Shown piece by piece: positions 17,431-32,424 of a stretch of DNA of 64,000 nt; positions within the stretch are counted from its first letter, which is position 1; every line of letters starts with the position of its first letter. The stretch is taken from contig JAKCCX010000005.1 of NCBI GenBank assembly GCA_021838715.1, positions 1 to 64,000 on the forward strand, read 5' to 3'. This DNA is from Pseudomonadota bacterium. Its GTDB lineage: Bacteria > Pseudomonadota > Gammaproteobacteria > Burkholderiales > Burkholderiaceae_F. The position numbers and the translations under genes were made by a program. The notes under the pieces are model-generated. The model ran no database searches, was not told the origin of the DNA, and worked only from the letters and a program-made list of their open reading frames with translations.

Positions 17431-18191
17431 AACCGGTAGCCGACCTTGACGCCGTAGCTGTAGATCCCGCCGGTCGAATCGCCTTCGACGACGACGTCGG
17501 CGATCCCCAGGTTCATGTCGACCCCGGCAAACACCTTGGGTTGGGCGAAGTTCACCTGGGTCAGGTTGGTGACCCCCGACGGAGCGACCCGGCTCCAGAC
17601 CTCGCCGACGCCGCAATACGGGGTGGCGAAGAGAAACCCCTTGGAGATCGAGATGTCGGCGCTCACCGTTTCCATGCCGAGCTGGCTCATGCCGTCGATC
17701 CGGGTCACCGCGCCGCGCAGCGCCACCGCCGGCATGTCGACGCCGCCGGGGAGGATCGCCCATTTCAGCGCGCCGCCATAGAGGCGCACCTGCGAGGAGG
17801 GCACCTGCGAGTACATCACGCCCAGGTCGACGTTGTCGGGCAGGCCCTTGGACAGGCGCACCGACGGCGCCGGCATCGTGCCGTACACCGAACTGCCGGT
17901 GATGGCGGGCTGGATCGCTCCGGTGTTCGCCATGTGCGTTCCGGTCACCGCGACGCCGATGTCGAAGCCCGTGATCCCCAGCGGATCCGCGGGTTCGTAC
18001 GGCTTGTAGGAAAACGCCGCGCCCATGTCGCGCGCGAGGTCGACGAACTGCCCCTGGTTGAGGTTCTGCAGCGTGTTGACGTCGAAACTCGCGGCGGAGG
18101 AAGCGCTCGCGAATCCGGCGAGCAGGGATCCGAGAACGGCGGACCGCGCAGCGGTGGTGGAACGCCGGGCGGATGGACACAGGATGGGCAT
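17427..18191 (-). CDS. Putative outer-membrane beta-barrel protein
   Basis: A 254-residue exported protein with an Arg-rich n-region and a signal peptide ending near residue 32 (ASASSAASF). The rest has alternating hydrophobic strands rich in Gly, aromatic and polar residues and ends in GVKVGYRF, with the C-terminal Phe that the BAM complex recognises in outer-membrane barrels. I do not recognise a named family. Transcription converges on the RND pump gene and the two stop codons share CTAG. Start ATG 18191 is preferred to in-frame alternatives further upstream because it begins the signal peptide. Confidence 0.7.
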   Translation of the reverse strand: MPILCPSARRSTTAARSAVLGSLLAGFASASSAASFDVNTLQNLNQGQFVDLARDMGAAFSYKPYEPADPLGITGFDIGVAVTGTHMANTGAIQPAITGSSVYGTMPAPSVRLSKGLPDNVDLGVMYSQVPSSQVRLYGGALKWAILPGGVDMPAVALRGAVTRIDGMSQLGMETVSADISISKGFLFATPYCGVGEVWSRVAPSGVTNLTQVNFAQPKVFAGVDMNLGIADVVVEGDSTGGIYSYGVKVGYRF

Positions 18192-18327
18192 GGGAAATTC
18201 CGTATCGATGAATGGGAATGCGTCTGGCGCGGATCGTAGCCGAAGCCGGTGCGCATGGGGTACCCGTAATCGTCGCCGGAGACGCCTTGCGGGGATCTTC
18301 CCGATCACGTAGAATTCCGCCTCTTTC

Positions 18328-18403
<76 letters not shown>

Positions 18404-18500
18404 AGATTCTTGCTAGCCTAATCAATTCATTGGGTTAGCTGTGGGAAAAGCCTCTCGGAAGGTTCGATATGTCCAATTCGAACGTCCGATTGAGGTTTTC

Positions 18501-19673
18501 ATGTCCTACGCTACCTACATCTCTCGGTCCGATTCCGGGCTGTTCTACTTCCGTTTGCGTCTTCCTCCGCCTGTCGCGTCGGTCCTTGGTGTGAAGGAGG
18601 TTCGGAGATCCCTGTCCACGAAGGAACGGACAGAGGCGATGCGTAAAGCATTGTCGCTGTATGAGGATATCCATCGCGTTGAACAAGCTACCCGGAACCC
18701 TGGTAACTGCCTACCGCTACCACCATCGTTGCAAAAGTATTCCCGGCGCCATGCTTCCGCGCGTGCCTACCAGGATCCGAGGTTAATCCTCGAAAAAGGG
18801 TTGGAGCATTACAAGCGGGAGCACCGGCACCTCTGGACGGAAAAGACGGCGCAGGAGGTGGAGGCGATCATTTCCCGCTTCGATTTCGGGGCTGCGCGGA
18901 AGTTCGCCGACATCGCCGATCTCAACGCCCAGGCCCAGGCCTGGTGCGACGGCCAGGCCATGGATCGCCCATGCCCCGAGGACCGGACGGTCCGCGTGCG
19001 CGATGCCTTCGCCCAGGAGCAGCCGCTATTGCTGCCGCTGCCGGACGACGACTTCCCGGTGGCCGAGCGCATCGAGGTCAGCCTCGGCAAGACACCCTAC
19101 GCCCGGTTCGACACCAACGACTACTCGGTCCCGGCTCAGCACGTGCGCCGCAGCCTGACCGTGTTCGCCACGGCGCAACGGGTGCGCATCCTGGACGGCG
19201 CCACGGTCGTCGCCTCCCACCCGCGCAGCTACGACCGCGGTCAGCAGATCGAGGATCCGGCCCACATCCGGGCGCTGGAGGACACCAAGCGCAGCGCCCG
19301 CCAGCACCGTGCGACCGACGCGCTCGTTGCCTGCGTTCCATCGGTGAAGGACCTGCTCGTGCAGGCCGCCGCCCACGGCTACAGCCTCGGGGCGGTGACT
19401 CGCGGGCTCATGGCCTTGTTGCAGCGCTACCCGGCGCAGGAACTCGACCAAGCCGTCCGCGACGCGCTCGCGCGCGGTGTGCCGCACCCCAACAATGTGC
19501 TCCTGGCGCTCGACGCCCGGCGGCACGTCCGGGGCGAGGCGCCGCCCACCCCCGTGCAACTGCCGGAGCACCTGCGCAGCCGTGACGTCACGGTCCAGCC
19601 GCACCGGCTCGACTCCTACGGCCAGCTCACGGAGCGTCCCGATGACGACGAACCCGAGTGCGAACCTGCGTGA
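18501..19673 (+). pseudogene. Chimeric ORF: tyrosine-recombinase N-terminus fused to IS21 IstA C-terminus
   Basis: A single open frame of 390 residues joining two unrelated genes. The first ~127 residues match the N-terminal region of tRNA-targeting tyrosine recombinases (YISRSDSGLFYFRLRLPPPV, then RRSLSTKERTEAMRKAL, ending WTEKTAQEVEAII). From about base 18880 the sequence is the C-terminal part of an IS21-type transposase IstA (FGAARKFADIADLNAQ, then YARFDTNDYSVPAQHVRR and VVASHPRSYDRGQQIEDPAHIRAL). Neither catalytic domain is present: no recombinase R-H-R-Y and no DDE core. Base composition rises sharply at the joint. I read it as an in-frame deletion or insertion junction, not a functional enzyme. 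GTG 18441 is an alternative start. Confidence 0.85.
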
Positions 19674-20400
19674 ACGTGCCACCCAGCTGCGCCTGAACGG
19701 AATCCTCGCCCACTGGTCCGAGATCGGCACCGCCGACTGGGTGGCGCAACTCATCGAGTGGGAAGAAACCGAGCGCACCCGCCGCAGCATGGAACGCCGG
19801 CTTCGCCGTGCCAGTATCGGCGCGTTCAAGCCCATGTCGGACTTCGACTGGACATGGCCCGCGCGCTGCGACCGCGCCGCCGTCGAGGAACTCATGGACT
19901 TGCAGTTCATGACCGAGGCGACCAACGCCGTGCTCGTCGGGCTCAACGGAATCGGCAAGTCCACCATCGCCCAGAACATCGCCCACCAGCCCCTGCTCGC
20001 CGGCCACACGGTCCTGTTCATCACCGCCGGGCAATTGCTCGGCGAGCTTGCCGGCATCGACAGCGATTCGGCCCTCCAGCGCAGGCTGCGCTACTACGCC
20101 GGGTTCGACCTGCTGGCCATCGACGAAGTGGGGTACCTGTCCTACTCCAACCGCCACGCCGATCTGCTCTTTGAGCTGACCAACCGCCGTTACAAGAAGA
20201 AGAGCACCATCGTCACGACGAATAAACCATTCTCCCAATGGCACGAGGTCTTCCCCAACGCCTCCTGCGTCGTCTCCCTGATCGACCGGCTCATCCACAA
20301 CGCCGATGTCGTCGCCATCGAGGGCGAGTCCTACCGCCTCAAAGAAGCTCAGGAACGAAACGAACAGCGCGCCGCCGCGCGGCGCAAGCGCAAATCGTGA
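19642..20400 (+). CDS. istB: IS21-family helper ATPase IstB
   Basis: IstB is the AAA+ ATP-binding partner of the IstA transposase. The 252-residue protein has an N-terminal helical region, Walker A GLNGIGKS (residues 100-107), Walker B LLAIDEVGYL (about 157-166) and the sensor region STIVTTNKPFSQW. ATG 19642 lies inside the end of the IstA-derived frame, a 32-base overlap usual in IS21 elements. The gene looks intact, but its IstA partner is truncated, so the element should be immobile by itself. Confidence 0.95.
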   Translation: MTTNPSANLRERATQLRLNGILAHWSEIGTADWVAQLIEWEETERTRRSMERRLRRASIGAFKPMSDFDWTWPARCDRAAVEELMDLQFMTEATNAVLVGLNGIGKSTIAQNIAHQPLLAGHTVLFITAGQLLGELAGIDSDSALQRRLRYYAGFDLLAIDEVGYLSYSNRHADLLFELTNRRYKKKSTIVTTNKPFSQWHEVFPNASCVVSLIDRLIHNADVVAIEGESYRLKEAQERNEQRAAARRKRKS

Positions 20401-20642
20401 CCGAGCTGCGACTTGACGAACTCCCCTGGCCGTTGTCGTCCGACGACGAACCCAGCGGCGAAGCCTGCGCGCAACTCGTCGATCTGCTCTACGCCTTGGG
20501 CGACCTCGTCGCCGAGCGCTACCACCGCAAGATCAAGCGGTACTACCGGCGCCGCCGTCGCAAGGAACAACCCGCCGCCGTCGCCAAACCCGACGGCGTG
20601 CAACTCGATCTGTTCCCCGCCGATCTGCTCGAACCCTTCTGA
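20397..20642 (+). CDS. Small third ORF of the IS21-type element
   Basis: An 81-residue basic protein that starts with GTG overlapping the istB stop (GTGA) and ends in QLDLFPADLLEPF. The middle is strongly basic (RYYRRRRRKEQ). Such small accessory ORFs occur after istB in some IS21 relatives; no function is established. Translational coupling and position before the IS end repeats support a real gene. Confidence 0.6.
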   Translation: MTELRLDELPWPLSSDDEPSGEACAQLVDLLYALGDLVAERYHRKIKRYYRRRRRKEQPAAVAKPDGVQLDLFPADLLEPF

Positions 20643-20652
20643 AGCACCCCAG

Positions 20653-20699
20653 GATCGCCGTAATGGCGCCACCCCGTGATCGGCGTTATGGAGCCACCC
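20653..20699 (+). repeat. Tandem end repeats of the IS21-type element (right end)
   Basis: Two direct repeats 25 bases apart: GATCGCCGTAATGGCGCCACCC (20653-20674, in two parts GATCGCCGTAATG and GCGCCACCC) and GATCGGCGTTATGGAGCCACCC (20678-20699). IS21-family ends carry multiple internal repeats that bind transposase, so this probably marks the right terminus. The matching left end is not visible, consistent with loss in the deletion that made the chimeric ORF. Confidence 0.65.
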
Positions 20700-20780
20700 G
20701 CCTGCCGTCCATCGACGCAGACCGCTTGCGCTCGGCCCCGCCAACCAGCCTCAACAACAAACCGCGGCAAATATCCGCGG

Positions 20781-21260
20781 TTTTACGCAGCCATCAACAG
20801 GTGGCAACCTTCATCTCCCTGACCCACCCTTGCAACGCCCTTAGTTGCTCGGCATTTTCGTGGCAGGTTTGGTAGTTGGCGGCAACGGTTCCGGCGACGG
20901 CAGAGAGCGCAATGCCTGCGGCGGCCGCATCAGCATCTCGGGCGGGCTCGGGCAGTTCTCCGGCGGCGGCAGCGTCGTGCAGGCGCACAAAGCCGCGGTT
21001 GATAGTGCAAGCAGCGGAGGTTCATCCGATCGCATTGATCCGGATGCCGACAGTGAGATGCGGGCCAAGAGCCGCGCGGCGCAATCGATGCTGACGGCAG
21101 GCCGTCTAGATGGAGACCGCCATTGACCGTGGCGATGGACGCGAAGCTGCTGGCCTTGAAGGCGGTGCCATGGGCTTCCGATTCCAAAAACGTACGCGTG
21201 CCTGATCGGTAATCGTGTTCGGCGACAGTGCGCCCAGTGGCGCTGTTCCTATCCATCGGT
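20781..21260. other. Mostly non-coding, decayed sequence between IS end and abiE
   Basis: Apart from the spanin-like remnant, I see no intact gene between the IS right end and the abiE promoter. A 108-codon minus-strand frame (21256 to 20930) overlaps the remnant and has no recognisable domain. Confidence 0.5.
20794..21068 (-). pseudogene. Probable phage outer-membrane spanin (Rz1/LysC-like) remnant
   Basis: On the minus strand one frame (21068 to 20841) reads a lipoprotein signal, LLALSTAALCAC, followed by a Pro-rich stretch (TTLPPPENCPSPPEMLMRPPQALRSL). This is the layout of Rz1/LysC o-spanins of phage lysis cassettes. A second frame (ending 20794) supplies VAANYQTCHENAEQLRALQGWV, which resembles the usual spanin C-terminus. 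The two halves are in different frames, so the gene is frameshifted or the two frames overlap. No holin or endolysin is recognisable beside it. Confidence 0.4.
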
Positions 21261-21265
21261 TGTTA

Positions 21266-21298
21266 TTGACATTTACCTATGTTATGGAACAATATGTC
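21266..21298 (+). promoter_or_regulatory. Candidate abiE promoter with inverted repeat
   Basis: TTGACA (21266-21271) is followed after 18 bases by CAATAT (21290-21295). The interval is bounded by GACAT (21268-21272) and ATGTC (21294-21298) in inverted orientation, a possible operator. AbiEi antitoxins are known to repress their own promoter through inverted repeats. A transcript would start at or just before the abiEi ATG, so the mRNA may be leaderless. Confidence 0.45.
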
Positions 21299-21303
21299 GG
21301 ATC

Positions 21304-21903
21304 ATGGATACGACCGCCGACAAGCTGCTGGAGCTGGTGCGCTCGCAGGGACTGCTGCGCCCCCACGATCTGGTCCCACTGGGCATCCCACGGGTGGCCC
21401 TAACGCGGGCCGTGCGGCGCGGGCAACTGGAGCGCGTCGGGCGCGGCCTGTACGGCCTCGTGGCGCGTCCGGTGTCGGCCCACGGTACGCTGGCTGAAGT
21501 CGCGCGTCGTGTGCCCAAGGGCGTGGTCTGCCTGCTGTCGGCGCTGCGCGTGCACGACCTGACGACCCAGGCCCCGTTCCAGGTGTGGCTGGCCATCGAC
21601 AACAAGGCCGCTGCCCCGAAGCTGGACTACCCGCCGCTACGCCTCGTGCGCTTCTCCGGCGCGGCGCTGAGCGAGGGTGTCGAGGAACACGTCGTCGATG
21701 GTGTGACCGTGCACGTGACCAGCGTCGCCAAGACCGTGGCCGACTGCTTCAAGTACCGTAACAAGATTGGCATCGATGTGGCACTGGAATCGCTGCGGGA
21801 GGCGTGGAACGCCAAGCGCATGACCAGCGACGAGATCTGGCACTACGCCAAGATCGACCGTGTCGCCAACGTGATGCGCCCCTATCTGGAAAGCCTGGCA
21901 TGA
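21304..21903 (+). CDS. abiEi: AbiEi-type antitoxin and transcriptional repressor
   Basis: AbiEi is the antitoxin of the type IV AbiE system and represses the operon. This 199-residue protein has the N-terminal winged-helix domain (LLELVRSQGLLRPHDLVPLGIPRVALTRAVRRG, then LERVGRGLYGL) and the C-terminal AbiEi domain (VVCLLSALRVHDLTTQ, VWLAIDNKA, VTSVAKTVADCFKYRNKIG). The stop overlaps the toxin ATG (ATGA). The gene itself looks intact. GC content is below that of the neighbouring core genes. Confidence 0.93.
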   Translation: MDTTADKLLELVRSQGLLRPHDLVPLGIPRVALTRAVRRGQLERVGRGLYGLVARPVSAHGTLAEVARRVPKGVVCLLSALRVHDLTTQAPFQVWLAIDNKAAAPKLDYPPLRLVRFSGAALSEGVEEHVVDGVTVHVTSVAKTVADCFKYRNKIGIDVALESLREAWNAKRMTSDEIWHYAKIDRVANVMRPYLESLA

Positions 21904-22822
21904 ACGCACCTGACAAGAGCGGGCGCAATGTCGCCGCGTCAGTTCGCGCCCGGCTGCTCAACAAGGCCCGCGCTGAAAGACTCGACTTCAACCTGCTGCT
22001 GACCCGCTACGCGCTGGAGCGCGTCCTGTACCGCCTGAGCGTTTCGGAGCAGTGCGGTCAATTCTTGCTCAAGGGTGCGTTGCTGTTCGACATCTGGTTC
22101 GACGTACCGCATCGCCCGACCCACGATGCCGACCTGCTGGGCTTCGGCTCCACCGAAATCCCGCATCTGGAAAACCTGTTCCGGAGAATCAGCCAGATCG
22201 CCAGCGATGACGGCATCGTCTTCAGGCCGACAGCGTGAAGGCCGCCGAAATCCGCAAGGAGGCCAACTACGCGGGCGTCCGCGTGACGATGATCGGCCTG
22301 CTCGATGGCGCGCGCTGCCCGGTACAGATCGATATCGGCTTCGGCGACGCCGTGACGCCCGGCCCGGACAACGTTCAGTACCCGGTCATCCTCGACGACA
22401 TGCCGCAGCCGCAACTGCGGGTCTATCCCCGTTACACCGTGGTCGCCGAAAAGCTGGAGGCGATGGTCAAGCTCGGCATGCTCAACAGCCGGATGAAGGA
22501 CTACTTCGACCTCTGGGTTCTCGCCGGACATTCCGACTTCGACGGCGCAGTGCTGGCCACGGCCATTCACGCCACGTTCGAGCGCAGGGGGACTGCCATC
22601 CCGCCCGGCGCGCCGCTGGGCCTCACCGATGAGTTCGGCCTGGACGAGCAGAAGACAAAGCAGTGGCAGGCGTTCCTGCGCAAGAACACCTTGGAGCCGA
22701 TGCCGCTGACGAAGGTGATCGAGGTGCTGCGCGAACTCCTGCTGCCCGTGTTGGCCGCGCTCGCCGCAGGCGTAGGGTTCGACCGGCAGTGGCACGCGGG
22801 CGCAGGATGGGATGCGCCCTGA
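21900..22822 (+). pseudogene. abiEii: AbiEii-type nucleotidyltransferase toxin, frameshifted
   Basis: AbiEii toxins are nucleotidyltransferases of the DUF1814 family. The first frame (21900-22238) gives MNAPDKSGRNVAASVRARLL and the NTase core (GQFLLKGALLFDIWF, then RPTHDADLLGFG), then stops after GIVFRPTA. The second frame continues at once with DSVKAAEIRKEANYAGVRV through QVDIGFGDAVTPG to GMLNSRMKDYFDLW. Joining the frames near 22222-22226, most simply by restoring one missing base, recreates a normal product of about 307 residues. The NTase metal site is in the first part; substrate and helical regions are in the second. No slippery heptamer is visible. It is either a real inactivation or an assembly error. 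Confidence 0.88.
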
Positions 22823-23122
22823 CGTCAAGCCGACCTGCCAGTTCGATTCCGCGTTTGGGGATCGAACCCCGGACCATGGTGCTCCAGCGCTGGCGCCAAA
22901 CTACGCGGGCAACTTGGCGGTGGTCTGAACCTGCGTCCCGCTGCCGGCTGGACCCGTCCCGGGGCACGATGGTCGATGTCACGATCATTCCGGCGTCAAA
23001 CCCGACGAAGAATAAGGACGGTGAGCGCGGCCCGGAGATGCGCTAGGCGGCCAAGGTCCAGGACTTCACGAACCGTCGCTGCAAATGGAAGGCTAAGTGG
23101 AAGGCTCCTACATTGGTCGGAG
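22823..23122. other. Intergenic stretch with a tRNA T-arm-like fragment
   Basis: No gene is recognised. On the minus strand, around 22837-22915, the sequence contains GGTCCGGGGTTCGATCCCC preceded by AGCGCTGGAGCACC, which resembles the 3' half of a tRNA, but the stems do not close into a full cloverleaf. It could be a degraded attachment site. The rest is unremarkable. Confidence 0.3.
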
Positions 23123-23797
23123 TCAGGCCCGCAGTGTGGTCAGGAGCGTGACCAGTTCGTGCAGGGCGGTGAATGGCTCGGGGTCATTGTAGGCATTGAA
23201 CTTTACAGCCAACGCCAGCGCCCGCTGCGTGGCAATTTCCAGCCGATCACGTGTGGTGGCGAAAACGCCGCCCGCGCCTTTGTCGTACCCTGGCATGTGC
23301 TGCTTCAAACGCGCCATCACGTCGTCGCGATGAATCGGCCCCTGAATGTCCTCGTAGTGCAGCAAAAGCCACAGTTCAAAGCTCGGAATAGATGGGACGG
23401 CCCTGAAGCTGACGGGCTGTCTCTCGTCATTGCGCAAATTGCCATCCAGCGACCTCGCCAAACTCAGGGCGTCGAAATAGCTGTCGTGGTCGTCGCGGTC
23501 AAACACCGCATATACCTGGTCGAAGCTTTGGGGGCGAATTCCCTTGTGCAAATCGCCGTACTCAAACAGTTGCTGGGCATAACGCACCACCTGGATGGGT
23601 GCGGTGCCGATCTGCCCCGGCTGCACTTCCACATTCGCGGAGTGCAGCTGATGGGCGGCGCGGATTTCTTCCAGATACTGCGGTTCGGTTTTGCTGCCTT
23701 CGGTGACGATCAGGATGCGGGCGTAGCTGGCACGCCGCGTCTCCTTGGCCGCTTTGCGACGCAACTGCCGATCCTTGGCTTGGTTGTCGCGGCCCAT
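23123..23797 (-). CDS. RloB-like TOPRIM protein (AbiLii-like)
   Basis: A 224-residue RloB-family protein, with a TOPRIM-related nuclease fold predicted for the family. Visible motifs are the acidic glycine turn ILIVTEGSKTEPQYL (about residues 28-42), the AVFDRDDHDSY strand with clustered Asp residues, and SIPSFELWLLLHY. The N-terminus is basic (DRQLRRKAAKETRR). Its ATG shares one base with the stop of the upstream ATPase (TGATG), so the pair is coupled. AAA ATPase plus RloB is the composition of the AbiL abortive-infection system. GC content is clearly lower than in the core genome. Confidence 0.85.
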   Translation of the reverse strand: MGRDNQAKDRQLRRKAAKETRRASYARILIVTEGSKTEPQYLEEIRAAHQLHSANVEVQPGQIGTAPIQVVRYAQQLFEYGDLHKGIRPQSFDQVYAVFDRDDHDSYFDALSLARSLDGNLRNDERQPVSFRAVPSIPSFELWLLLHYEDIQGPIHRDDVMARLKQHMPGYDKGAGGVFATTRDRLEIATQRALALAVKFNAYNDPEPFTALHELVTLLTTLRA

Positions 23798-25068
23798 CAG
23801 TGCTTCACTACCAGGGCCTGGTTGCGCAGAAAGGGCAATGCGCCGTAGCGGCCTTGCAGATAACCGCGCTCCAGTGCTTCATGCTTGCGCGGGCTGAAGT
23901 CGAGCAACGGATACAGCGAGGAACTTTGATCCGGGCGCTTCTCGACAAACCAGACCTGATCGCGCCGCAACAGGCCGTAGGCATCGAGCAGCGAGGTGTC
24001 GTGCGTAGTGAAGATCAGCTGTGCGCCGCCGGTGTTGACTTCAGGTCGATGGAACAGGCGCACCAGAGCCTGCACCAGCAGCGTGTGCAGGCTTGTGTCC
24101 AACTCATCCACCACCAGGGTTAGCCCTTTGCTGAGGATGTCCAAGATGGGGCCGGCCAGGAACAACAGGTTGCGGGTTCCACTGGATTCGTCCATCAGGT
24201 CGAAAACTGCCTTGCCGTGCTCAGTGGTGTGATGGAACTTCACTTCGTCCACAGCCTGCTCGCTGGCGGTTTCTTCACGCTTACCGGTGGGGAGGTCGAA
24301 ATGGATGGTATGCACCATGGCCTGCTTGGTGGTCACTTCAATGTCCGCAATGCTGATGTCGGCGGCGCGCAGAAACTCGCAAATGGCTTTGCGCTGAGTC
24401 TCTTGTTTGAGCATTTGCACCGAAAACTGCGGAGATAGTGGCGACTGCTCGTTGAATATCACGAGCCGGTTGGCGAACCAATCAAACACCGGGCGCAGGG
24501 CCTCGCTGTTGAGTTGTACCGCCACCGACAGGAACAATGCATTGGGTCGGGTCGCACCCTCCCACAGGCTCTTGGCGCCCTTCAGACTGGGGCCGAAGGC
24601 ATATACGTCCTTGCCGCGTTCGGCATCGAAGTGGCGATTGAACCAGCTTTGCGGCTTGAACGCCTTGTAGACCAGCAGTTGCTCGCTGACGATGCGTTGC
24701 GCGTTCATGGCGAAGCCATACTGGTAGCGCACGCCGTCGAGGATGAATGTGACCTCGAACTCCGTGGGCTGGTTGCCCGATATGGCGTCCAGTTTGAATG
24801 GTTGGAGCCGATCAAATGTCTGGCCCGGCTGCAGGGCAGCCGACTCCAGCACGACGCCGCGCATGTACTGCAGGGCCTTGATGAGGTTGGATTTGCCGCT
24901 GGCGTTGGCACCGTACACCACCGCGCTCTTTAACAAGCGCGGAGCCGCCTTCAGGCCGCTATCTAGGGCGTGGGTATCCAGCAAGGTCTTGTCGGTGGAC
25001 GCAACCAAGCTGAGCGCCTGCTCGTCGCGCAGGCTGCGGAAATTCTTGATGCGGAACTCGACTAGCAT
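23797..25068 (-). CDS. AAA15/OLD-like ATPase, partner of RloB (AbiLi-like)
   Basis: A 423-residue ABC/SMC-like ATPase. It begins MLVEFRIKNFRSLRDEQALSL, typical of the AAA15 family, with Walker A GANASGKS at residues 53-60. An ABC-type signature region is near residue 290 (MDESSGTRNLLFLAG), Walker B is LTLVVDELDTSLH near residue 315, and the switch His is in TTHDTSLLD. The usual position of a nuclease in OLD proteins is absent; the RloB protein encoded next supplies a TOPRIM domain in trans. AT-rich DNA upstream carries a promoter. Confidence 0.88.
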   Translation of the reverse strand: MLVEFRIKNFRSLRDEQALSLVASTDKTLLDTHALDSGLKAAPRLLKSAVVYGANASGKSNLIKALQYMRGVVLESAALQPGQTFDRLQPFKLDAISGNQPTEFEVTFILDGVRYQYGFAMNAQRIVSEQLLVYKAFKPQSWFNRHFDAERGKDVYAFGPSLKGAKSLWEGATRPNALFLSVAVQLNSEALRPVFDWFANRLVIFNEQSPLSPQFSVQMLKQETQRKAICEFLRAADISIADIEVTTKQAMVHTIHFDLPTGKREETASEQAVDEVKFHHTTEHGKAVFDLMDESSGTRNLLFLAGPILDILSKGLTLVVDELDTSLHTLLVQALVRLFHRPEVNTGGAQLIFTTHDTSLLDAYGLLRRDQVWFVEKRPDQSSSLYPLLDFSPRKHEALERGYLQGRYGALPFLRNQALVVKH

Positions 25069-25101
25069 TGGATTTGCCTATCAAGCGTAGAATATATCAA
25101 G

Positions 25102-25129
25102 ATTATGCATATAAAGCGCAAATTATCAA
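25102..25129 (-). promoter_or_regulatory. Candidate promoter of the AbiL-like operon
   Basis: On the minus strand TTGATA (25129-25124) is followed after 16 bases by CATAAT (25107-25102), in a strongly AT-rich stretch unlike the surrounding DNA. The start codon is about 34 bases downstream of the -10. Confidence 0.5.
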
Positions 25130-25214
25130 TATATATCGGCCTTCAATGGAAAATTTCTGATGGGATGGCAATCTGATCAAAGGCCGCCCGAAGCCGGAGC
25201 CCGCGTGGTCATTC

Positions 25215-25379
25215 TCACCGAGCAACAGTCTTCATCCGTTCTCCATCAAGACGGCCAAATAATTCGTTGATTTTGGCGCGCGCGGCAGGGTCGAAGGTTT
25301 GTCCGCCATGATCTGCGAAGGCGCACCCGACCCATTGATGGGATGCGGTTCGCCGGTTCTGCGCGTCGAATTTCATCAT
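25215..25379 (-). CDS. Small hypothetical ORF (54 residues)
   Basis: A minus-strand frame starting ATGATG with AGGCAGGA as a plausible ribosome-binding site. It encodes a 54-residue polar protein (FDAQNRRTASHQWVGC, then FDPAARAKINELFGRLDGE). A 6-bp inverted repeat (CCTATT..AATAGG, 25385-25400) lies immediately upstream. No family is recognised. It could be a small regulator or a gene fragment. Confidence 0.35.
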   Translation of the reverse strand: MMKFDAQNRRTASHQWVGCAFADHGGQTFDPAARAKINELFGRLDGERMKTVAR

Positions 25380-25618
25380 TCCTGCCTATTTCGGAATAGG
25401 TTGAAACGCCCAATTTCGATGAAATCCGCGCCATTCCGGCATGTCGTGGCAGGCCGGTGCAATCTCGTCACGTTCGTCCCGATATCGCACAGGTTCACCG
25501 TGGCGTGGATGCCGTTCCGGAATGTCGTGGCTCCGGTTGCGGGTGGCGATCGCCTTGGGCCGGCGGTCGTCGAGAACCCTATACTTGTCACCGATTTTTT
25601 GTGGCCTCTTGTACGTCC
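25380..25618. other. Upstream region of jetA with imperfect direct repeats
   Basis: No gene is recognised. Two imperfect direct repeats, CATTCCGGCATGTCGTGGC (25432-25450) and GTTCCGGAATGTCGTGGC (25514-25531), lie 82 bases apart. A possible -10 (TATACT, 25580-25585) precedes jetA by 33 bases, with only a weak -35. The repeats may be operators or remains of a mobile element. Confidence 0.4.
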
Positions 25619-27091
25619 ATGGAACACGCCACCCTCGGCACGCTGCGTGACCGGCATCCCGCTTGGCGGCTGCTGGCGTCGCCGCACGCGCCAATGGTGG
25701 CGAGTTTTCTCCACCGGGTGTTCGTGGCGCCGAACGTACGCGGCATGAGCGAGGCCGATCTCGCCGAGGCGCTGGAGGATGAACTGTTCGTTCTGCGCGA
25801 GCAGGTTGGCGCCGACGCGTACCCGAAGGACGCGCGCGACTACCTGAACGACTGGGTCGCGCCCGACAAGGGCTGGCTGCGCAAGTTCTACAAGCCGGGT
25901 ACGGACGAGGCGCAGTTCGATCTGACCCCCGCCACCGAGAAGGCCATCGCCTGGCTGCTGTCGCTGACCGAGCGGCCGTTCGTCGGCACCGAATCGCGCC
26001 TGCTCACACTCTTCGCGCTGCTCGAGCAGATCAGCGCGGGTACCGAGGCCGACCCGATCAAGCGCGTGGCCGACCTGCGCAAGAAGCGCGACGAACTGGA
26101 CGCCGAAATCGCCCGCGTGCTGGCGGGCGACGCGCCACTGCTGGATGACACGGCGGTCAAGGACCGATTCCTGCAGTTCCAGCAACTGGCTCGCGAACTG
26201 CTGGCCGACTTCCGCGAGGTGGAGCACAACTTCCGCCAGCTCGACCGCAAGGTGCGCGAAAAGATCGCGCTGTGGGAAGGTGCCAAGGGTGCGCTGCTCG
26301 ACGAGATCATGGGCGAGCGCGATGCCATCGGCGACTCCGACCAGGGCCGCAGCTTCCGCGCCTTCTGGGACTTCCTCATGTCCGGCCGGCGGCAGGAGGA
26401 ACTCTCCGAACGGCTGGACCAGGTGCTGGCGCTGCCCTCGGTGGCGGCGCTGAAGCCCGAACCGCGTACCCGCCGCGTGCATCACGACTGGCTGGAGGCG
26501 GGCGAACACACGCAGCGCACCGTGGCCCAGCTGTCGCAGCAGCTGCGCCGCTTCCTCGATGACCGGGCCTTTCTGGAGAACCGCCGCATCCTGGACCTCT
26601 TGCACGGTATCGAGGGCAAGGCGCTCGCCGTTCGCGAGGCAACGCCCTCGGGAACGGTGATGCACATCGACGCCATGGGTTCGGACATCGAACTGCCGCT
26701 GGAGCGGCCGCTGTTCACGCCGAGCATAAAGCCGCGCCTAGCCGATCTGGCGCTCGTGGCCGGCGAGGACGACATCGACACCGCGCGCTTGTTCGACCAG
26801 ATCGTGGTGGACAAGGCGCGCCTGCGGTCGGCTGTTCAACGCGCACTGCGTCGCCAGCCCCAGATCACGCTGCGAGAGTTGCTGGAGGCCGAGCCCTTGC
26901 ACCAGGGTCTGGCCGAACTGGTGGCCTACCTCGAGCTGGCCCACACCGGGGACGGCGGGGACGCCCTGGAAGGCCTGCGCGCACTGATCGACGAAGTCGT
27001 GGAGGAACCGATCCGTTGGCAGTCCAGTAACCCAGCGGGCGAATCCGTGACGCGTGAGGCGCGCGTGCCCCGCGTGATCTTCACGCGCTGA
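25619..27091 (+). CDS. jetA: Wadjet subunit JetA (DUF3375), kleisin-like
   Basis: JetA is the MukF-like kleisin of the Wadjet anti-plasmid condensin. The 490-residue protein has the DUF3375 N-terminus (TLRDRHPAWRLLASPHAPMV, then FLHRVFVAPNVR) with an early winged-helix region. A long helical, coiled-coil-prone centre follows (RVADLRKKRDELDAEIARVL, then QLARELLADFREVEHNFRQLDRKVREK), and the C-terminus carries a second winged-helix-like part. ATG 25619 is chosen because family homology begins there. No strong Shine-Dalgarno is visible. It heads a tight four-gene operon in the canonical A-B-C-D order. Confidence 0.94.
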   Translation: MEHATLGTLRDRHPAWRLLASPHAPMVASFLHRVFVAPNVRGMSEADLAEALEDELFVLREQVGADAYPKDARDYLNDWVAPDKGWLRKFYKPGTDEAQFDLTPATEKAIAWLLSLTERPFVGTESRLLTLFALLEQISAGTEADPIKRVADLRKKRDELDAEIARVLAGDAPLLDDTAVKDRFLQFQQLARELLADFREVEHNFRQLDRKVREKIALWEGAKGALLDEIMGERDAIGDSDQGRSFRAFWDFLMSGRRQEELSERLDQVLALPSVAALKPEPRTRRVHHDWLEAGEHTQRTVAQLSQQLRRFLDDRAFLENRRILDLLHGIEGKALAVREATPSGTVMHIDAMGSDIELPLERPLFTPSIKPRLADLALVAGEDDIDTARLFDQIVVDKARLRSAVQRALRRQPQITLRELLEAEPLHQGLAELVAYLELAHTGDGGDALEGLRALIDEVVEEPIRWQSSNPAGESVTREARVPRVIFTR

Positions 27092-27120
27092 CGGCGTCAA
27101 GCGGCCAGGGGGAGAAGACC

Positions 27121-27810
27121 ATGAACGATGCGCTGCACGAGGACGATTCGGTGGAGGCCATGCCCAGCGCGCTGCCGGCGGTGCCCGAATTGTCGCAGCT
27201 GATGGTGCACCTCCTAAAGGGTGTGCTCTACCGCGACGACGATGAGCGCCTGTGGGCCAGCCTGCTGCGCCTGCAGGCGCGGGTGCGGGAACAGGTCGCC
27301 GTGCTGCTGCTCGATCTGGTGCTGGACGAGGCGGAGGGCCACGCCTTCCTGAAGAGCCGTCCGGACCCGGGCGAGGCAGAGGAGGTGCCCCGCCTGCCGC
27401 GGCTCGTCGCACGCCGGCCGCTGTCCTACCCGGTGAGTCTGATGCTGGCGTTGCTGCGCAAGCGCATGGCCGAGTTCGATGCCGGGGGCGGCGAAACCCG
27501 GCTGGTGCTCTCGCGCGAGGACATCGCCGAGCTGATGCGGGTGTTCCTGCCCGATGGCACGAACGAGGCCCGGCTGATCGACCAGGTGGACGCGACGATC
27601 ACCAAGGTGATCGATCTGGGGTTCCTGCGCCGACTCAAGCCCACTGCTGGCGGCGGGCAGGACCGAGGCCACTACGAGGTGCGACGCATTCTGAAGGCCT
27701 TTGTCGAGGCGCAGTGGTTGGCGGAGTTCGATGCGCGGCTGGAGGCCTACCGCACGGCATGGCCTGGCGGCGCCGGTCAAGGGGCCAGTCAGGAGAAGGC
27801 CGATGCTTGA
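27121..27810 (+). CDS. jetB: Wadjet subunit JetB (DUF4194), KITE-like
   Basis: JetB is the MukE-like accessory subunit that binds the kleisin. The 229-residue protein shows [22 protein letters not shown] at the N-terminus and tandem winged-helix regions ([18 protein letters not shown], then [17 protein letters not shown] and [10 protein letters not shown]). The AGGGGGAGAAG at 27108-27118 is a plausible ribosome-binding site. The 3' end overlaps the jetC start by 8 bases. Confidence 0.93.
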
Positions 27811-30800
27811 GGCGCCGACGCTCGGCCTGGAGTTCGTGGCCGACGACCGCCGCGTCGGCTTTCGGCTGCAGCGGCTGGAAGTGCTGAACTGGGGCACCTT
27901 CGACAAGCGCGTGTGGCGCTACGAGCTCGACGGGCGCAATGGCCTGCTCACGGGCGATATCGGTTCGGGCAAGTCCACGCTGGTCGATGCCATCACGACC
28001 TTGCTCGTGCCGGAGAATCGCGTGGCCTACAACAAGGCGGCCGGGGCGGATTTTCGCGAGCGCTCCTTACGGTCCTACGTGCTGGGCCACTACAAGAACG
28101 AACGCAACGAGGTCACGGGCAGTGCCAAGCCTGTGGCACTGCGCGATGCGTCGAGCTACTCGGTCATCCTCGGCGTCTTCCGCAACGAGGGCTACGACCA
28201 GGCCGTGACGCTGGCTCGGGTGTTCTGGCTGAAGGACCCTCAGGGCCAGCCCGCTCGCTTGTTCGTGGCCACCGAGCGAGCCCTCACGATTGCCGACGAT
28301 TTCAGCGGATTCGGTAGCGAGATCACCACCCTGCGCAAGAATCTGCGGGGCGCGGGCTGCGAGTTGTTCGACAGCTTCCCGCCGTATGGGGCCTGGTTCC
28401 GCCGGCGCTTCGGCATCGAGCACGAGCAGGCCCTGGAGCTTTTCCACCAGACGGTGTCGATGAAGTCGGTGGGCAACCTCACCGACTTCGTGCGCAGCCA
28501 CATGCTCGAGCCCTTCGATGTGGGCGGGCGAATCGAGGCGTTGATCCGCCACTTCGACGACCTGGACCGGGCGCATCAGGCCGTACTCAAGGCCAAGCGA
28601 CAGGTGGACTTGTTGACGCCCCTGGTCGATGACGGGGCGCGCCACCGGCTGCTCGCGGCCGAGATCCAGGGCTGGCGGGATGCGCGGGATCAGCTTCGGC
28701 CGTACTTCGCCCGCCTCAAGGGCGAGCTGCTGGACCGCCGGCTCTGCTTGCTGGCGGAGGATGCGGCCCGGCTCAATGCGCAGATCGAGCGCCTGGACGC
28801 GCAGCGAGAGTCCGAGCGTGTTGAAGTCGGCCGCTTGGAGCGGGCCCTGCGAGACAACGGCGGTGACCGCCTGGAAGAGCTGGCGGCGGAGATGCGCCGT
28901 CTCGAGCAGGAGAAGGGACAACGCCAGAAGAAGTCTGGCCGCTTCCAGGAGCTGCTAGCCCGCATTGATGAGGCGGTGCCAGGGGATGAAGCAGGCTTCG
29001 TCGCCCAGCAGCAGAGCATCACCCAGCGTGCCGAAGGTTTGCGCGAGCGCATTGCGGACCTGGATAACCGCGAGCGCGAAGAGGACTTCACGTTCCGTAA
29101 GGGCCGTGAAGAGCACGCCGCCTTGTCGGAGGAGATCGACAGTCTTCAACGGCGCAAGAGCAACATCGACGCCGCCCAGATCCGCGTCCGCGATGCGCTG
29201 TGCGCGGCCCTCGCGATCGGTGAGGATGAACTGCCCTTCGCGGGCGAGCTCATCCAGGTGCGTGATGACGAGCGAGATTGGGAGGGTGCCGCCGAGCGGC
29301 TGTTGCGTGGCTTCGGTCTCGCGCTACTGGTGCCGGATGTCCACTACAAGGCCGTTGCAGATTGGGTGGACCGCCAGCATCTGGGCGCCCGGCTGGTGTA
29401 CTTTCACGTGCGGCAGAGGAAGGTGGCGCAGGGCGCCGGCCTGCATCCGCAGTCGCTGGTGCGCAAGCTCGTAATCAAGCCGGATTCGCCGCACTACGAG
29501 TGGCTGGAACAGGAACTGCACCAGCGCTTCGACGTGGCCTGCTGCGACACCGGCGAGCAGTTCCGCCGCGAGGCCCGTGCCATCACGCGCGCCGGTCAGA
29601 TCAAAGACCCGAGCGGTCGCCACGAGAAGGACGACCGCAGCCGGATCGCCGATCGCAGCCGCTACGTGCTTGGCTGGAGCAATGCCGACAAACTGCGGGC
29701 GTTGCGCGATCAGCGGCAGTGTCTGGAGACAAATTTGGCCCTGCTTGGACAGCGCATCGGCGAGATCCAGCAGGCACGCAACGAACTGCGGGGCCGACTG
29801 GATGCACTCAGCAAGCTGGAAGAGTTCACGCGTTTCGCGGACATCGACTGGATGAGCCTGGCTCGCCAGATTGCTGCACTCGCCGAGGAGCGTGCACGGC
29901 TGGAAGCCGCATCGGACACGCTGCAGGAGCTCGGGCGTCAGCTCAAGGCGGCGCAAGATCGGCTCACGGATACGGAACGCAAGCGCGACGAGGCTCGGGA
30001 CAAACGTGCTGAGATCACAACCAAGTATGCGACGGCACAGGACCTGCGGAATCAGGCGGTCCGGATTTGGGACGAAGCGCCGCTGACCGAGGTGCAGAGC
30101 GAGCGTCTGGATGGCTGGCGTTCGCAAGCGCTGGGCGAGCATCAGCTGTCGGTCGAGTCCTGCGACAACCGTGAGCAGGAGTTGCGCAGGTGGCTGCAGG
30201 AGCGCATCGACGCGGAGGACAAACGCCTCGCGCGGCTGACCGAGCGCATCGTCAACGCCATGCGTGGCTTCAAGGAGGAGTTCAAGGCCGAGACCGTCGA
30301 GATCGACGTGAGCCTTGCGGCGCTGCCGGAGTACGAGCGGATGCTAACCGGATTGAAGGGCGACGACCTGCCGCGCTTCGAGGTGCGCTTCAAGGAGCTG
30401 CTGAACGTCAATACCATCAACGAGATCGCCAACTTCAACGCCCAGATTGCCCGTGAGCGGGAGACGATCAAGGAGCGCGTCGACTTCATCAACCAGTCGC
30501 TCCAAGTCATCGACTACAACCCCGGTCGGTACATCAAGCTGGTGGCGCTGCCCAGCCCGGATGCGGAGATCCGCGACTTTCAGCAGGATCTGCGGGCGTG
30601 CACCGAGGGCGCGATGACGGGCTCGGCCGACGAACAGTATTCGGAAGCCAAGTTCCTGCAGGTCAAGGCCATCATCGACCGCTTCCGAGGCCGAGAAGGA
30701 CTGTCGGACGCCGACCGGCGCTGGACCGCCAAGGTCACCGACGTACGCAACTGGTTTCTGTTCTCGGCCAGCGAGCGCTGGCGCGCCGATGGTGCCGAGC

Positions 30801-31216
30801 ACGAGCATTACTCGGACTCGGGCGGCAAGTCGGGCGGGCAGAAGGAGAAGCTGGCCTACACCGTGCTGGCTGCGAGCCTGGCCTACCAGTTTGGTCTGGA
30901 ATGGGGTGCGGTGCGTTCGCGGTCATTCCGCTTCGTCGTCATCGACGAGGCGTTCGGGCGCGGGTCGGACGAGTCGGCGCAGTACGGGCTGCGCCTTTTC
31001 CAGCAGCTCAACCTGCAGTTGTTGATCGTCACGCCGCTGCAGAAGATCCACATCATCGAGCCCTTCGTGGCCAGCGTGGGATTCGTTCACAACGAGGGCG
31101 GGCGCGACTCGCGACTACGCTGCCTGTCGATCGAGGAGTACCGAGCGCACAAAGCTGCCGAGACGGCGGAGGGTATGGCGGAAGCCAGGGATGCCGTAGA
31201 CGGCGCGGCATCATGA
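27803..31216 (+). CDS. jetC: Wadjet subunit JetC, SMC/MukB-like ATPase
   Basis: JetC is the SMC-family motor that extrudes DNA loops on plasmids. The 1137-residue protein has an N-terminal ATPase half with Walker [10 protein letters not shown] (about residues 51-59). Long coiled coils follow (about 270-430 and 650-850, rich in Glu, Arg, Leu and Gln) around a central hinge region, and the C-terminal half carries the signature [14 protein letters not shown] (about 1003-1016) and Walker [17 protein letters not shown] (about 1042-1057). Both catalytic halves are intact, as expected for a functional condensin. It overlaps jetB upstream and jetD downstream (ATGA). Confidence 0.96.
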
Positions 31217-32424
31217 ACTGGACCACGCCGGCCGATTTGCGCACCCAGGTCCAGCGCTTGTGGGACCGGGGCAACTTGGTGCGGGCGGCTGCAACGGACA
31301 CCGTTTCGTGGCCGCTGCGCCTGAACCTGAAGGCCCCCACTGCCGCGGACCTGTCCGACCGCTTCGAGGCGGTTCGTGACTGGGTGCGCGCCGTCGCCGA
31401 TATCCCGCAGGTTCGGATCGAATGGCGGGAGTGGAACCACCGCGTCCAGGGGACGCAGCGGCTCCCGGCGGCCGTCTGGCTTGACACCCTGCAAGACGCC
31501 TTGGCATTCATCGGCAAGGCTCGTCAAGCGCAGCGGTTCGAGGCGGTGTGGCAGCAGACGGCAGCCGCGCAGCCCCCGCTGCTGGCGTGGCTATCTCGGA
31601 GGCCGATCCAGGCGCTGGAACTGGCCGACCGCTGGGAGCGTCTGCTGGCCGTCGTCGCATGGCTGCAGACTCATCCTCGACCGGCCGTGTACCTGCGCCA
31701 GGTCAACGTCCCCGGCGTGGACAGCAAGTTCATCGAGGCCCACCGGGGCGTATTGGCCGAGCTGCTGGATCTGACTCTGGCACCAGAAGTCATCGAGACC
31801 GATGCGACCGGCGTCGCACGGTTCACACGCCGATTCGGCTTCCTGGACAAGCCCGTCCGGATTCGGTTTCGCCTGCTCGACCCGGCCTTTCCCAGCCTGC
31901 CGGGCTGCGAAGGCCTGCCCGACATCACCCTGGACGCTGCGAGCTTCGCGGCGCTGGCGCTACCGGTCGAGCGCGTCTTCATCACCGAAAATGAGACAAA
32001 CTTCCTGGCCTTTCCGGAGGTGGCGGGTGCCCTCGTCGTTTTCGGCGCGGGCTACGGCTGGGAGGCGCTGGGGCGCGCGGAGTGGCTGCAGCGATGCCAT
32101 CTGCACTACTGGGGCGACATCGACACCCACGGGTTCGCCATCCTCGACCAACTGCGTGGTCACTTTCCCGGCGCGGCGTCTTTCCTCATGGACCGGGAGA
32201 CGCTTCTTGCCCACCGCCTGCACTGGGGCGAAGAGCCCGACCCTGCACGCCATGACTTGTTGCGTCTCATGCCCGGGGAGGCGGCTGTCTATGACGACCT
32301 CAGATTCGATCGCCACCAGCCCCGGCTACGACTGGAGCAGGAGCGCGTGGGCTTTGGCTGGCTGTGCGATCGACTGGCGTGTATCCCCTTGGGAGCCCTC
32401 GTGGCCCCGCCCCCTTGCTCGTAA
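31213..32424 (+). CDS. jetD: Wadjet nuclease JetD (DUF3322/DUF2220, TOPRIM)
   Basis: JetD is the topoisomerase VI-like nuclease that cuts the plasmid once loop extrusion is complete. The 403-residue protein has an N-terminal DUF3322 arm (residues 1-190, e.g. [16 protein letters not shown]) and a C-terminal DUF2220 TOPRIM domain. The acidic residues are in [13 protein letters not shown] (about 255-267) and the second motif is [14 protein letters not shown] (about 298-311), giving the E...D-x-D pattern. The ATG overlaps the jetC stop. The end is complete, followed by a hairpin. Confidence 0.95.

Follow-up and report, generated by a model that had tools for sequence, protein, structure and literature searches.

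A recombinase–IstA fusion frame beside tRNA-Ala(CGC), very probably a deletion scar in a decayed integrated element

One uninterrupted reading frame beside a tRNA-Ala gene begins as one kind of mobile-element protein and ends as another, which raises the question of whether it encodes a chimeric protein with an activity of its own or is what a deletion left behind. The frame lies within 64,000 nucleotides of contiguous DNA, termed the window below. It extends from a GTG at 18441 or an ATG at 18501 to a TGA at 19671–19673 and contains no internal stop. The ATG is the likelier start, given a GAGG stretch just 5′ of it (found by eye) and the short lead that precedes the domain in several DUF6538 proteins. 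Pfam places two families in the predicted product (P0001), DUF6538 at residues 8–60 (E 1.8e-10) and Mu-transpos_C_2, the IstA beta-barrel, at residues 180–252 (E 3.8e-26, with all 73 profile positions matched). The frame check and the Pfam matches thus bear out the initial annotation, which had described a 390-codon frame with a GTG or ATG start in which two families are fused. The shift in composition that it reported is likewise present, GC rising from 0.57 before the joint to 0.72 after it and GC3 from 0.67 to 0.90. It had placed the change at about 18880; the change of family stands, but the position does not, since nucleotide homology to intact IS21-type copies, aligned from the same-genus genome G021 and the locus L013, starts at 18891, and the joint is therefore placed at 18888–18894.

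The right-hand part of the frame (18891–19673, forward strand) comprises, by homology to G021 and L013, the last 260 codons of an IS21-type istA, encoding the beta-barrel and the C-terminal helices. IstA from G021, where the element is present in six copies, is 82% identical in protein sequence to residues 102–390 of the fusion, and that from L013, a public record titled as an Acidobacteria MAG, is 84% identical to residues 129–390. According to PMC10122671, IstA has two HTH domains at its N-terminus, followed by a DDE domain and a small beta-barrel, and closes with a C-terminal extension. The intact G021 frame of 553 residues shows a comparable order, with HTH_23 at 56–88 (E 0.0012) and rve at 171–269 (E 2.4e-5), neither of which reaches Pfam's own threshold, ahead of the beta-barrel at 343–415. 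The joint corresponds to residue 294 of this frame and is thus preceded by the rve match, in agreement with the earlier claim that IstA has lost its DDE core; the HTH region is lost as well. The fusion, which scores 30.7 against NF033546 (cut-off 160), is not a full IstA carrying both HTH and DDE core.

The rest of the insertion sequence (IS) is found downstream. An istB gene (19642–20400, forward strand) is open over its full length of 252 amino acids and is recognized by NCBIfam IS21_help_AAA (205.1 bits, cut-off 200) and Pfam IstB_IS21 (E 7.8e-53). Together with the Mu-transpos_C_2 domain encoded by the end of istA, this assigns the element to the IS21 family by homology. The right terminal inverted repeat and the IS end lie at 20749–20799 (forward strand), where the sequence ends ...CGCAGCCATCAACA and the G021 copies end ...CGCAGCCGCTAACA; positions 20749–20794 match the inverted left end of the G021 IS (83% over 46 bases). 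The G021 IS is 3461 bases long, running TGTGAATGGCTGCG...CGCAGCCGCTAACA, and five-base direct repeats flank all five copies that could be read on both sides, the fetched stretch of the sixth having ended before its right end. The window fragment (18891–20799, 1909 bases) corresponds to the G021 IS from position 1549 to its end and is 87–89% identical in DNA sequence to the related intact copies. What is absent corresponds to the first 1548 of the 3461 bases, among them the left end and, within istA, the HTH and DDE regions. The window copy thus resembles other IS21-family elements in its istB, its IstA C-terminal barrel and a right terminal repeat ending in CA, but differs from them in lacking about 1.5 kb on the left, so that it cannot be an autonomous IS. 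With the right end present at 20799 and the left end absent, a target duplication cannot be seen.

The left-hand part of the frame (18501–18890, forward strand) was delimited with Pfam, alignment and a search for the catalytic domain PF00589. It appears to be the N-terminal portion of a tyrosine recombinase, some 128–130 codons carrying DUF6538, an assignment that draws on this domain and on its position beside a tRNA gene rather than on catalytic residues. PF00589 has no match in the fusion, consistent with the initial annotation that the recombinase had lost its catalytic domain, or anywhere on the contig (C27); the five PF00589 matches in the genome are all on other contigs. The notion that the missing integrase C-terminus lies beyond the IS was rejected for the same reason, and the tail of a phage gene is found there instead. 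The last native recombinase residue is placed, provisionally, by alignment to distant homologues. In one such alignment (A2) the motif WTEKT of the window aligns with WTEKT of L061, a 509-residue frame with Phage_integrase at 314–479, shortly before the window departs from the family. By BLASTP against L061, only residues 10–85 of the 410-residue frame (that from the GTG) align, with 25% identity (E 9e-8).

DUF6538 is listed by Pfam as a domain of unknown function, and no mention of it was found in the literature searched. To judge from matches to the domain, it occurs in at least 92 of 398 genomes of the phylum, the genome under study included, with at most 15 candidates scored per genome, and was not found in six other genomes of the genus (E 0.001). 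A sample of DUF6538 proteins was drawn from 30 returned loci, 13 of which had a frame of at least 389 codons uncut by the end of the locus; ten of these 13 were tested (L057, L060 and L069 being left out), and Phage_integrase was present at E≤0.001 in six and without a match at that cut-off in four.

The recombinase part begins 97 bases beyond a tRNA-Ala gene with anticodon CGC (18328–18403, forward strand; ARAGORN), the apparent integration site. Homology between the window and its relatives stops at 18403–18408 in all five relatives' tRNA loci that were fetched (G021, G022, G023, G024 and G026), as would be expected at the boundary of a tRNA-integrated element. The 47-base 3′ part of the tRNA gene (18357–18403) is present on two contigs of G023. 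Only on the second of these, L039, does homology to the window extend further; this contig was fetched for its Wadjet genes and carries a second 47-base tRNA end at positions 81–127, followed by about 44 bases like 18404–18447, about 107 other bases and then sequence like the window from 25218 onward, with the Wadjet genes. From this order, window positions of about 18448–25217, including the fusion, are absent at that place in G023. Another element's end is seen on the tRNA side at the end of L034, also from G023, and the same sequence follows the tRNA in G022. Within the genus, tRNA-Ala appears to have served as an integration site more than once. In the genome under study a second tRNA end was sought without success in the window, in the remaining 64001–78838 of the contig and in the rest of the incomplete draft (up to two mismatches in 24 bases); the element's far side may have been lost by deletion. 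An inverted 17-base match to the tRNA T-arm at 22859–22875 (88%) may be a trace of another tRNA-derived end or may be due to chance.

The IS end runs into the C-terminal remnant of a spanin-like phage gene (20794–20988, reverse strand), identified by PHROG profiles: PHROG 4952 (‘signal peptide motif’, category other) matches best, at E 1.4e-25 over profile positions 107–168 of 171, and two Rz-like spanin PHROGs match more weakly (E 0.0032 and 0.0041). The interval 21304–22822 contains an AbiEi-like gene and, after it, an AbiEii-like gene broken into two frames (profile positions 4–109 and then 111–298, of 299), a further sign of decay; a stretch 68% identical to this region is found elsewhere in G023. 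On the reverse strand at 23126–25068, an RloB-like protein is encoded beside an AAA_21 ATPase, a two-gene defence candidate recognized by the PADLOC AbiLii and AbiLi models. A type I Wadjet-like set occupies 25457–32421, with JetA, JetB, JetC and JetD in that order (best PADLOC E values 3.4e-216, 1.4e-94, 0 and 9e-157) and about 81% DNA identity to G023. The locus resembles tRNA-integrated prophages and islands with a DUF6538-type recombinase in that a recombinase-type gene adjoins the tRNA 3′ end and reads away from it, and in that a phage gene remnant and defence genes come after. It is unlike them in that the recombinase is cut at about codon 128–130 and in that a second tRNA end was not found.

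The tRNA boundary, the IS without its left part, and the phage tail and defence genes that come next point to a decayed tRNA element in which a deletion runs from the integrase into an IS21 copy. We therefore consider it highly probable that a deletion within a decayed element, integrated at tRNA-Ala(CGC), left this frame behind as its scar. An element with a DUF6538-type recombinase would have entered at the tRNA gene, an IS21-type element would have inserted near the end of a phage gene, and a later deletion would have removed everything from about codon 130 of the integrase through roughly the first 1.5 kb of the IS; both this order and the single deletion are inferred. With its breakpoint inside the IS, the deletion does not look like one initiated at an IS terminus. 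The product, if translated, would have neither the recombinase catalytic domain nor the DDE domain, and most likely does nothing. A deletion scar, there called fresh, was one of the outcomes that the initial annotation had envisaged, and a scar as such fits an IS with an intact right end and about 1.5 kb missing on the left, a cut integrase, and decayed neighbours in the form of the phage gene tail and the split AbiEii-like gene. Points against full certainty for the scar are that the integrase half has no close relative among the sequences found, that no second tRNA end was found in the draft genome, that four of the ten DUF6538 proteins lack a Phage_integrase match at E≤0.001, and that the istA part shows no relaxation on the window branch.

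That no stop interrupts the joined frame had been offered as a sign that a chimeric protein could still be made. The frame is indeed open, but this is weak evidence: when joints of the integrase part to the G021 IS were simulated 2000 times, 30% gave frames of at least 390 codons, 45% at least 300 and 69% at least 200. An in-frame join thus needs no selection; landing in frame was a matter of luck, at odds of roughly one in three. Across the actual joint, the other two phases are open for 88 and 230 codons.

Selection was compared on three branches, by three-sequence parsimony of the window, G021 and L013 with sites showing three bases omitted (nine in istA and eight in istB). In the istA part, synonymous and non-synonymous changes number 27 and 20 on the window branch, 17 and 14 on that of G021, and 21 and 27 on that of L013 (Fisher p 0.36); in istB the window branch has 23 and 16 versus 16 and 3 and 17 and 8 on the other two (Fisher p 0.16). 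Pairwise dN/dS in the istA part is 0.20 for window–G021, 0.28 for window–L013 and 0.32 for G021–L013, and the corresponding values for istB are 0.15, 0.19 and 0.09. No selection signal on these three branches sets the istA part of the fusion apart from the intact copies. The lack of relaxation in the istA part on the window branch implies a young scar or continuing constraint. The changes in istA and istB neither support special constraint nor prove decay. Most of the window branch probably predates the fusion.

A second instance of the chimera was sought in several collections. It was found in none of the 66 other genomes of the family: four of the 67 match the fusion, the genome under study included, but in the remaining three the match starts at residue 102 and lies within the IstA part. 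The integrase half was found in none of 273 other genomes of the class, sampled from a larger group (E 1e-6), nor in plasmid or phage records (E 1e-5); 286 plasmid records match the fusion, none of them in the integrase half. Among the 20 of these 286 that were listed, a Rhizobium plasmid (H2) was the sole record to cover at least 80% of the fusion at a single place; it was set aside, as its annotation shows two adjacent hypothetical frames with istB after them, which resembles an istA in two frames rather than a chimera. Public genome contigs, scanned with short protein stretches rather than the exact joint as seeds, yielded 11 loci, none of which matches ahead of residue 93. Viral contigs were the one collection in which the exact joint was sought, and neither it nor the fusion nor the integrase half was found there in pattern-seeded scans that reach close relatives only. 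A sequence search of the PDB returned nothing at E 0.01, and nothing relevant to such recombinase–transposase fusions was found in the literature searched. Conservation of the fusion was thus seen in no second genome of these collections, leaving the earlier description of the open frame as ‘conserved’ unsupported.

The absence of a second instance of the joint from the collections searched would also be expected if it were an assembly misjoin, and the genome is a draft of 146 contigs. IS copies and other repeats can lead assemblers astray, and drafts can collapse or omit them. The joint, however, lies inside the IS rather than at an IS end and within a single contig of 78.8 kb, and the assembly, searched with the complete G021 IS, yielded no other copy that could have bridged two places; we accordingly regard a misjoin as improbable.

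The remaining explanation is that the fusion is expressed and acts as a decoy, its IstA barrel docking on IstB, whether from the neighbouring gene or from an incoming element, and blocking the activation of a genuine IstA. As reported in PMC11208146, the C-terminal beta-barrel of IstA docks on IstB, and mutation or removal of the barrel lessens both stimulation of the IstB ATPase and integration. A decoy is conceivable because the fusion retains the barrel, matched over the whole Pfam profile and predicted with fair confidence: the mean pLDDT is 78–89 per ten-residue block over residues 191–260, though 48 in 181–190. The predicted structure of the fusion as a whole has a mean pLDDT of 60.6 and a pTM of 0.33, such that the IstA part alone is usable; confidence in the model of the integrase half is low. 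Adjoining the frame is an open gene that scores as istB, and the GAGG before the ATG at 18501 would suit translation; however, the chimera has no second copy in the collections searched, the istA part has changed on the window branch much as on those of the intact copies, and the draft assembly yielded no further copy of the IS. No sigma-70-like site was found in 18000–19000 either, which carries little weight because shuffled sequences average only 0.5. Interference with IS21 by the retained barrel is conceivable but unsupported by these findings, and a decoy very improbable. The initial annotation had gone further in suggesting a dominant-negative protein or repressor of related elements, for which the missing second copy, selection signal and other IS copy leave no positive support. 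Its further suggestion of DNA binding is doubtful, since the lost part of IstA includes the HTH region and DUF6538 is of unknown function.

If the decoy were nevertheless real, it would amount to self-made protection against IS21-type transposition, in which a chance fusion supplies a stand-alone ligand of IstB encoded before an open istB, and would be an instance, in bacteria, of a transposase fragment recruited as a regulator. The fusion looks real but ordinary as a deletion scar. In the GC-rich DNA found here the full-length frame stays open in about a third of simulated joints and a frame of 200 codons in more than two thirds, and an eye-catching ‘domain-shuffled’ protein can arise when mobile DNA at a tRNA gene decays in the ordinary way.
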